Shown here piece after piece: positions 1,975 to 26,268 of a stretch of DNA of 64,000 nucleotides; position 1 is the first letter of the stretch, and every line of letters starts with the position of its first letter. Both the position numbers and the translations under genes were made by a program. The stretch lies in NCBI RefSeq assembly GCF_006715085.1, contig NZ_VFMM01000003.1, positions 620,001 to 684,000 on the forward strand, read 5' to 3'. Source of the stretch: Kribbella jejuensis. GTDB lineage: Bacteria; Actinomycetota; Actinomycetes; Propionibacteriales; Kribbellaceae. The notes under the pieces were generated by a model. That model did not search any database. It was not told where the DNA came from and saw only the letters and a list, made by a program, of their open reading frames with translations.

Positions 1975-2052
1975 CCCACCGCCCACCAACTAGCTGACAC
2001 ATCACGGACAGTCGTCCCATATCGCGGACGGTGTTTGGCGGTAAGCGCGTCG

Positions 2053-2058
2053 TACTGT
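2053..2058 (+). promoter_or_regulatory. Candidate -10 of the cysteine-leader transcript
   Basis: TACTGT fits the actinobacterial TAnnnT -10 pattern and would place the transcription start near 2065. That is only about 7 bases before the leader ATG at 2072, so the leader would be nearly leaderless. No good -35 at 17 bases was found. Confidence 0.4.
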
Positions 2059-2071
2059 CATGATCGTCGGC

Positions 2072-2104
2072 ATGCAGATGCTGTGTTGTTGCTGTTGTCG
2101 CTGA
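2072..2104 (+). CDS. Poly-cysteine leader peptide MQMLCCCCCR
   Basis: This ten-codon ORF reads MQMLCCCCCR followed by TGA. Five consecutive Cys codons (TGT TGT TGC TGT TGT) are extremely unlikely by chance in a genome of about 70 percent GC. Poly-Cys leader ORFs are known in mycobacteria as cysteine-responsive attenuators: when Cys-tRNA is scarce, ribosomes stall and the downstream gene is released. An in-frame ATG at 2060 could lengthen the peptide by four residues (MIVG). The leader ends 78 bases before the unknown gene at 2183 and is followed at once by a hairpin, the expected attenuator geometry. The regulated gene and mechanism here are inferred. Confidence 0.75.
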   Translation: MQMLCCCCCR

Positions 2105-2107
2105 CGC

Positions 2108-2124
2108 GCGCCGACTCTCGGCGC
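2108..2124 (+). promoter_or_regulatory. Attenuator-like hairpin after the Cys leader
   Basis: Perfect arms GCGCCGA (2108-2114) and TCGGCGC (2118-2124) enclose a 3-base loop and begin 3 bases past the leader stop. CCTGT at 2132-2136 is complementary to ACAGG at 2170-2174, which overlaps the SD of the next gene, so a second, SD-hiding fold is possible. There is no clear T-tract, so translational rather than intrinsic transcriptional attenuation looks likelier. Confidence 0.45.
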
Positions 2125-2182
2125 ACGAGGCCCTGTCCTTTCCGTGGCCCGCCCGCCGACACAGCACTCACAGGAATACCGC

Positions 2183-2587
2183 ATGAATCTCCCGGCTCTC
2201 GCCGACCTGCTCGCATCCCGTGGTCTCCGGCTGCTTCCCGGTTCGTACGCCGTGCCGGTCGAGCTGCTCGTACAGTTGCCTGACGCAACCATCGCGCACT
2301 TCACCGCCCGCGGCACCACCCTGCGCCTGCGCACGTACTCCCCCGACGCCCTCACCTCGATCACCATCCCCGCCGAATGCGGCTGCGGCGACCACCACCC
2401 CCAAACCGGCCCCCTCCGCGTAACCCTCAGCCGCTACGCCGAACCGCTCGACGAACACCTCATCGACGGCCGCCTCGAGTATGGCTGGCAAACCCACGAG
2501 GCAGGCCTCCTCCCCCTGGCGGACGCCACGGAATACTTCTTCACCCTCCTCACCCACCTCCCCACCCGCGAACTAATCCCCGCCTAG
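2183..2587 (+). CDS. Unknown 134-residue protein behind a Cys leader
   Basis: I do not recognise this protein. The ATG at 2183 is preferred because AGGAA lies 7 bases upstream; a longer frame from GTG 2144 would run through the putative regulatory segment. The product starts MNLPALADLL, is soluble-looking with no signal peptide or membrane helix, and carries an ECGCGDHH motif at 65-72 whose two Cys and two His could bind metal or a cofactor. It has a beta-rich middle and a helical C-terminal third (LIDGRLEYGWQTHEAGL). GC3 is high, so it is genuinely coding. The five-Cys leader suggests that its expression follows cysteine supply. A truncated second copy lies just downstream, so the family has duplicated here. 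Confidence 0.75.
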   Translation: MNLPALADLLASRGLRLLPGSYAVPVELLVQLPDATIAHFTARGTTLRLRTYSPDALTSITIPAECGCGDHHPQTGPLRVTLSRYAEPLDEHLIDGRLEYGWQTHEAGLLPLADATEYFFTLLTHLPTRELIPA

Positions 2588-25449: not shown

Positions 25450-26268
25450 CTACGTTCCGGTGGCGACCGGGCGGGTCGGGTCGGTCACCCATTCGGACCA
25501 GCTGCCGACGTACACCGCCGACCGGATCCCCGCCGACTCCAGCGCCAGCGCCTCGTGCGCAGCAGTCACGCCGGAGCCGCAGTACACGGCAACCTCGGTG
25601 TCGTCGGTGACGCCTAGCGCGGTGAATCGCTCGCGGAGCTCGGCGGGGGTGCGGAAGTGCCCGCTCTCGGTGACGTTCGCGCCGGTGGGCGCGTTCACAG
25701 CACCCGGGATGTGGCCGGCCACCGGATCCATCGGCTCCACCTCCCCCGCAAACCGCTCCGGAGCCCGCGCATCCAACAAAATCCCCTTGGCAGCCACCGC
25801 AGCAGCCCCATCCGCATCCAACACCGGAATATGCCCAGGCGTCGCGGTGACGGTCCCAGAACCATCCGCCGGTACATCGGTTGTCAGTTTTTCGCCGGCG
25901 GACTGCCAGGCGGCTAGGCCGCCGTCTAGGACTCGGACGTTGGTGAGGCCGAAGTAGCGGAAGGTCCACCAGGCTCGGGCGGCGGACATGGAGTTGTTGG
26001 CGTCGTAGACGACGACCGGGGTGTCGGGCGACGTGATGCCGAGGCGGTGGAAGGTCGCGGTGACGGTGGTTGCGTCGGGCAACGGGTGGCGACCCGGGCC
26101 GGGTGGGCCGGCGAGCTCGGTGTCGAGGTCGACGAAGTACGCGCCGGGGATGTGACCGGCGTCGTACGCCGCCTTGCCGGGTGGGCCCGCCAGGTTCCAC
26201 GTGACGTCGGCGAGTACCACACCGGTACCCAGCGCACGCAGTTCATCGACGGTGATCAACGGGCTCAT
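25450..26268 (-). CDS. Thiosulfate/3-mercaptopyruvate sulfurtransferase
   Basis: This 272-residue protein has tandem rhodanese domains. The inactive N-terminal domain (about 1-130) contains DAGHIPGAYFVDLDTELAGP and VVVYDANNSMSAARAWWTFR. The C-terminal domain has the active loop C230-GSGVTA. Such enzymes move sulfane sulfur from thiosulfate or 3-mercaptopyruvate to cyanide or thiol acceptors. Its ATG overlaps the stop of a 27-codon ORF (ATGA), which in turn overlaps the thymidine kinase stop, so three coupled frames form the operon. Confidence 0.92.
   Translation of the reverse strand: MSPLITVDELRALGTGVVLADVTWNLAGPPGKAAYDAGHIPGAYFVDLDTELAGPPGPGRHPLPDATTVTATFHRLGITSPDTPVVVYDANNSMSAARAWWTFRYFGLTNVRVLDGGLAAWQSAGEKLTTDVPADGSGTVTATPGHIPVLDADGAAAVAAKGILLDARAPERFAGEVEPMDPVAGHIPGAVNAPTGANVTESGHFRTPAELRERFTALGVTDDTEVAVYCGSGVTAAHEALALESAGIRSAVYVGSWSEWVTDPTRPVATGT

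Follow-up and report, generated by a model that had tools for sequence, protein, structure and literature searches.

In the window analysed here, a stretch of 64,000 nucleotides from Kribbella jejuensis, a very short ORF ending in consecutive Cys codons stands in front of a gene without recognised family (hereafter gene X), which raises the question whether the short ORF is a cysteine-sensing leader of X and, if so, how it could act on the expression of this gene. The two elements, together with the gene upstream of them, are as follows.

349-1974: SepH-type gene with a DUF3071 domain, upstream of the leader.
2072-2104, forward strand: leader ORF MQMLCCCCCR with its stop codon (sequence; leader in 50/50 orthologues; frame-preserving length changes).
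2084-2098, forward strand: five Cys codons, TGT TGT TGC TGT TGT, the proposed sensor and at the same time the partner strand of the RBS region (orthologue, codon, duplex and fold analyses).
2183-2587, forward strand: target gene X, encoding 134 aa with a CxC(x2)HH motif (ORF conserved in 50 genomes; no Pfam or NCBIfam family; AlphaFold2 model).

The earlier note on this DNA had read MQMLCCCCCR at 2072-2104, and the sequence bears out both the peptide and its coordinates: the codons are ATG CAG ATG CTG TGT TGT TGC TGT TGT CGC TGA, and the distance from the end of the leader to the start of X is 78 nt. As a test of conservation, orthologues of X were collected from a total of 50 genomes (38 of Kribbella, 8 of 8 Actinopolymorphaceae and 4 from a third family of the order); the first search gave X in 37 of 37 genomes of the genus and in all 8 Actinopolymorphaceae (family f4), and a wider search, covering 392 genomes of the order, added one Kribbella and the four genomes of the third family (f3). 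Inspection of the upstream regions for Cys-run ORFs, as the earlier note had proposed, gave a Cys-rich leader for every one of these close orthologues in all three families, with 3-7 Cys codons near the stop codon and with the stop 58-100 nt before the start of X; homologous loci devoid of the Cys codons, which the note had named as evidence against its proposal, were not encountered among the 50. The leader peptides themselves vary, as in MQMLCCCCCR, MQMLCCCCCQCCH, MRISLCCRCCCR, MRITLCCCCCCCR, MRITCCLCCCR, MSFRVLCRCCCC, MRSGVLHRCCCCC, MHSRMSCCCCR and MHHLCCRCR.

Comparison of sequences also indicates the linkage between leader and gene. In six genomes of the order lacking X, the SepH-adjacent stretch where X would sit contains neither X nor a Cys leader. 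When 395 genomes of the class were searched, remote homologues of X turned up in one additional family (33 genomes); in the 32 examined, all outside the order, the position of the ECGCGDHH loop of X is occupied by other residues (e.g. WCPEEALQLW), no CxC motif and no poly-Cys leader of such kind were found, and SepH and the sulfurtransferase-like gene described below are both absent from the surrounding stretch. Since the remote homologues carry neither the loop nor the leader, the CxC loop and the leader appear to travel together, and their linkage may go back to a single evolutionary event.

The region in front of the leader carries the following conserved elements.

2006-2017, forward strand: GGACAGTCGTCC palindrome with its centre about 60 bp 5' of the leader ATG, a possible activator site (Kribbella alignment block).
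2035-2040, forward strand: -35-like TTGGCG, 18 bp upstream of the -10 (the aligned sequences share a TTTGG block).
2059-2064, forward strand: -10-like CATGAT, 7 nt 5' of the leader ATG, a leaderless spacing (CAT[G/C]AT followed by 7 nt and ATG in nearly all Kribbella).

The alignment gives NANNNT, followed by 6-7 nt and RTG, as the counterpart of the -10-like element in Actinopolymorphaceae. A scan for the sigma-70 consensus returned no promoter and missed the -35-like element, the -35 and -10 sequences both being weak matches. From the conserved spacing, transcription most likely starts at or beside the leader ATG (2072), so that the leader would be leaderless. Further upstream, positions 2006-2040 of the window form a conserved block containing a GGAC-N4-GTCC palindrome (centre at about -60) and one more GGAC, and GGAC/GTCC half-sites occur at similar positions in Actinopolymorphaceae; this block looks like a candidate activator site, and a second copy of the extended palindrome element that could name the regulator was not found in the genome.

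The -10-like element provides a fixed point for measuring the leader. Its distance to the leader stop is 42, 45, 48 or 51 nt in the 37 Kribbella genomes, and the spacer behind the stop varies freely over many lengths in the same genomes. Because the -10-to-stop distances are always multiples of 3 while the spacer is free, the leader reads as a translated frame, and on this sequence evidence it looks like a translated ORF. Among its Cys codons in the 50 orthologues 82% are TGT (211/258; 211 TGT and 47 TGC), and the corresponding value for the 23 gene-like ORFs of the window is 10% (6/60; 6 TGT and 54 TGC). No other short ORF ending in at least 4 Cys codons was detected in this genome after checking all 97 matches to the string TGYx4; with zero further poly-Cys leaders, the idea of a poly-Cys regulon in this genome was discarded. 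Comparison of the region 1900-2700 with Rfam gave no match above the curated threshold and nothing relevant.

The RNA between the leader and X was then described by four elements, all on the strand of X.

2105-2127, forward strand: hairpin just 3' of the leader stop, 7 bp (2108-2114 with 2118-2124; per-sequence folds and Kribbella consensus fold).
2129-2149, forward strand: minor hairpin GGCC...GGCC within the long stem (per-sequence and consensus folds).
2151-2176, forward strand: RBS-side strand GCCCGCCGACACAGCACTCACAGGAA, partner of the leader codons (duplex, cognate-versus-swapped and MFE analyses).
2172-2175, forward strand: Shine-Dalgarno (SD) sequence AGGA of X (sequence; an SD nucleotide paired in 47/50 folds).

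The hairpin 3 bases past the leader stop, pointed out in the earlier note, is present, and is nested within a long stem between the leader and the RBS. The SD-hiding pairing, which the note had raised as a possibility, gained comparative support from duplex swaps, MFE folds, opening cost and RNAalifold, the masking strand being mainly the tract of Cys codons. In the MFE folds of the RNA from the leader to the ATG of X, 16-27 leader:RBS pairs were formed in all 50 sequences, and at least one SD nucleotide was paired with the leader in 47 of them. In Kribbella, CUGUG (the Leu codon and the first Cys codon) lies opposite CACAG of the SD region, and the last Cys codons with the Arg codon, GCUGUUGUCGC, lie opposite GCCGACA(C)CAGC; in Actinopolymorphaceae, GUCCU lies opposite AGGAC, and the Cys tract opposite GCAUCAACCAGC or GCGACAACCAGC. 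The partners change in a matched manner, UGC/GCA versus CGC/GCG and GCUG/CAGC versus, in the most divergent Kribbella, UCUG/CAGA. RNAalifold recovered the helix for Actinopolymorphaceae, with compensation at pairs such as columns 34/80, where U-A is replaced by C-G.

As the MAFFT alignment of the three families was too poor for counting pairs, we instead compared cognate duplexes with duplexes swapped between loci. For 15 diverse loci, the mean energy was -29.3 kcal/mol for cognate and -24.2 kcal/mol for swapped duplexes, and none of 10,000 permutations was as good (p < 1e-4, not corrected for phylogeny). The complementarity was also partner-specific within Kribbella (p = 0.011) and within Actinopolymorphaceae (p = 0.008), again without phylogenetic correction; for the four third-family loci the test was not significant (p = 0.5), and a good leader:RBS pairing was not found for one member of this family (L248). 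Real leaders masked the RBS more than shuffled leaders, with a mean z of 2.7 for 20 sequences. The window sequence by itself does not reach significance, either for the duplex (z -0.7, p 0.19) or for the opening cost (z 0.84), and it is therefore the comparison that supports masking.

The cost of opening the RBS was calculated for the free RNA and for the RNA with a ribosome modelled on the first Cys codon. The cost decreased from 14.3 to 7.1 kcal/mol in Kribbella, from 22.1 to 10.9 kcal/mol in Actinopolymorphaceae and from 16.3 to 8.3 kcal/mol in the third family; a ribosome on the Cys codons reduced it in all 50 sequences, to about half, as a result of a kind that is weak by itself because blocking any 5' segment tends to cut the opening cost. 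The per-nucleotide accessibility of the SD in Kribbella showed little change and was uninformative. With the ribosome modelled at the leader stop codon the cost was also low, so that the attenuation model needs fast release at this position. No intrinsic terminator was found between the leader and X, the single terminator-like match (2068-2083) overlapping the start of the leader.

Taken together, these comparisons make cysteine-responsive translational attenuation of X, of the kind described for mycobacteria, the probable function of the locus. Transcription would start at or near 2072, and ribosomes would begin MQMLCCCCCR in the leaderless mode. With ample Cys-tRNA, the ribosome would cross the Cys codons and depart at the UGA, and the freed leader RNA would then pair with the SD-bearing segment (about 2151-2176), closing the ribosome-binding site of X. 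When Cys-tRNA is scarce, the ribosome would stall at these Cys codons, most of which are the rare UGU, and would hold the pairing strand; the stalled ribosome would thereby block the stem and allow translation of X. On this sequence-based model X is probably switched on under cysteine shortage, and membership of X in the cysteine regulon is plausible.

The main rival to translational attenuation is Rho-dependent transcription attenuation, in which Rho would load on the C-rich spacer once the leader has been finished and end transcription short of X; stalling of a ribosome at the Cys codons would alter the access of Rho. Such a role of Rho was proposed for the mycobacterial cys leaders by Seliverstov et al. 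2005 (PMC1262725), and the spacer of this locus is indeed C-rich (35 C and 21 G of 78 nt) and without intrinsic terminator. C-richness is, however, common in such genomes, and the extended spacer of locus L250 is barely C-biased (32 C and 28 G); moreover, Rho does not require the partner-specific complementarity between the leader and the SD region. We thus regard this explanation as unlikely, even though the two modes of attenuation can coexist. Somewhat less likely still, the leader would act as an arrest peptide or uORF sensing redox state, zinc or ribosome-targeting drugs instead of the charging of Cys-tRNA, with the nascent Cys-rich chain as the sensor. Cys-rich peptides can bind metals or become oxidised, and in the third family a run of no more than three Cys codons, broken by Arg (LCCRCR), is conserved, but the residues around the Cys run are loose (MQML, MRISL, MSFRV, MHSRM, MLL and others) and the number of Cys residues ranges from 3 to 7, for which a codon sensor is better suited than a sequence-specific arrest peptide.

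The conserved frame and Cys content would equally be expected of a functional Cys-rich micropeptide, for instance a metal-binding one, that is carried by the X transcript by coincidence; a product of just 9-13 residues with poorly conserved non-Cys positions makes this highly improbable, and it leaves both the SD complementarity and the switch to the rare UGU codon unexplained. The weakest of the four is a chance ORF, in which the TGY repeats would belong to a conserved promoter region and would not be coding. Short TGYx4 strings are numerous in this genome, as given above, but apart from the leader none of them makes up a short ORF with a Cys end, and this explanation was refuted by the conservation in 50 of 50 loci together with the three-base periodicity of the length change.

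What cysteine-responsive attenuation would control can be described in part from X itself. The earlier note had called the 134-residue product, which contains ECGCGDHH, unrecognised, and it holds up as such: no family was found for X in Pfam or NCBIfam, and comparison with PDB by sequence gave nothing below E 0.3. Weak matches of two members to SufA-like NCBIfam models (E 0.02) were disregarded. The AlphaFold2 model of X is of good overall quality (pLDDT 86, pTM 0.78) but weak over the CxC loop, and a Foldseek comparison with PDB yielded nothing below E 0.5. With VIA-align, an actin-capping protein (Z up to 5.5) and rows of secretion-chaperone and YbjN proteins (Z 2.8 to 4.1) were obtained, both at levels that may mean merely a common arrangement, and neither was adopted. 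The putative regulation by cysteine and the CxC(x2)HH loop suggest that X may serve the homeostasis of cysteine, thiols or metals. Whether X is a new family of Propionibacteriales that carries out such homeostasis with its CxC(x2)HH loop, and whose dedicated poly-Cys attenuator arose with the loop, we put at slightly less than an even chance from the sequence comparison.

Several features of X and its surroundings were observed in addition. Most Kribbella copies (e.g. L002-L019) end in LVGVA or close variants (LVSVA, LAVVA), and the copy in the window ends in LIPA; the conserved hydrophobic tail may serve as a signal for degradation or interaction. Positions 2599-2670 of the window, directly behind the X stop codon, hold short tandem repeats of CCGCCGTCACCCCG, and a frame at about 2698-2805 (LDNSRIDGQLDYRLAHPQADATAHLALLTQLLTT) is similar to the C-terminal part of X (LDEHLIDGRLEYGWQTHEAGLLPLADATEYFFTLLTHLPT), likely a decayed partial duplicate just downstream of the gene. 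At L038 (G019:C1:4109385-4109673), a second X copy, broken in two pieces and without Cys leader, lies about 9 kb from the intact X.

Farther downstream of X are genes for an HxlR-type regulator and an NAD(P)H-binding protein, and one more gene of the window is of interest with respect to sulfur.

25453-26268, reverse strand: 3-mercaptopyruvate-sulfurtransferase-like gene, about 23 kb from X and on the opposite strand.

Its product is 52-55% identical to a protein of Actinopolymorpha, and in Actinopolymorphaceae and part of the third family the sulfurtransferase-like gene is the convergent neighbour of X, directly abutting it in Actinopolymorphaceae. In some X-less genomes, SepH and the sulfurtransferase-like gene are also close and convergent; since this synteny occurs without X, the adjacency was kept as a hint, and its use as proof of a sulfur role of X was dropped. 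Separately, the DUF4395-cysA2-sseC operon is preceded by a different, longer conserved short ORF (G000:C2:37553-37581; L208, L133) that ends in RAVDNCR(M/V)RSSLCRRR, and related short ORFs (DHCRTRSSLCR...) stand before this operon in other families of the order. This ORF is possibly another Cys-sensing leader, and a search with the LCR-type leader pattern gave the cysA2-sseC operon as the sole match.

Poly-Cys leaders have been predicted in front of cys operons and cbs in Mycobacterium, Propionibacterium acnes and Bifidobacterium (Seliverstov 2005, PMC1262725), the poly-Cys leader of cysA2 is translated in mycobacteria, and Cys-rich uORFs before hypothetical genes have already been noted (Shell 2015, PMC4633059). 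Poly-Cys leaderless ORFs of M. smegmatis are cysteine-responsive translation attenuators according to Canestrari 2020 (Mol Microbiol 114:93), as cited in PMC13236596 and PMC9031893; in translation attenuation as outlined in PMC13236596, the uORF pairs with downstream sequence and occludes the SD, and stalling frees the SD. As far as the citing papers describe the Mycobacterium attenuators, the Kribbella leader agrees with them in being a short, apparently leaderless ORF with a Cys-run end directly upstream of its target, and in having a leader RNA able to mask the downstream RBS without an intrinsic terminator. On the same accounts, it differs in that its target is a single unrecognised gene and no recognised sulfur operon, in another order, and in that a single such leader, with a predicted response to cysteine, was found in the Kribbella genome instead of a set. 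The Cys leaders of PMC1262725 likewise have the Cys run near the stop codon and no terminator, but a conserved alternative structure was not found for them, whereas the Cys tract here pairs with the SD region. As in the trp and ilvB attenuators of Actinobacteria (PMC1262725, PMC13236596), regulatory codons in the leader would couple stalling to an RNA switch; those attenuators employ an intrinsic terminator, in contrast to the locus of X.

The mechanism thus belongs to a known kind; the additions are a new target family, further lineages, and 50 variants in which the Cys tract itself would directly mask the SD region. The range of poly-Cys attenuation would thereby grow to include Kribbella, Actinopolymorphaceae and a third family. 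If X is indeed under the control of a cysteine sensor, this gives a functional clue for a family left unassigned by sequence comparison. The 50 loci offer natural variants of a switch in which the same nucleotides would act as sensor codons and as RBS-masking strand; this makes the mechanism directly testable by compensatory mutations, and Cys codons complementary to a downstream SD region provide a search rule for further members.
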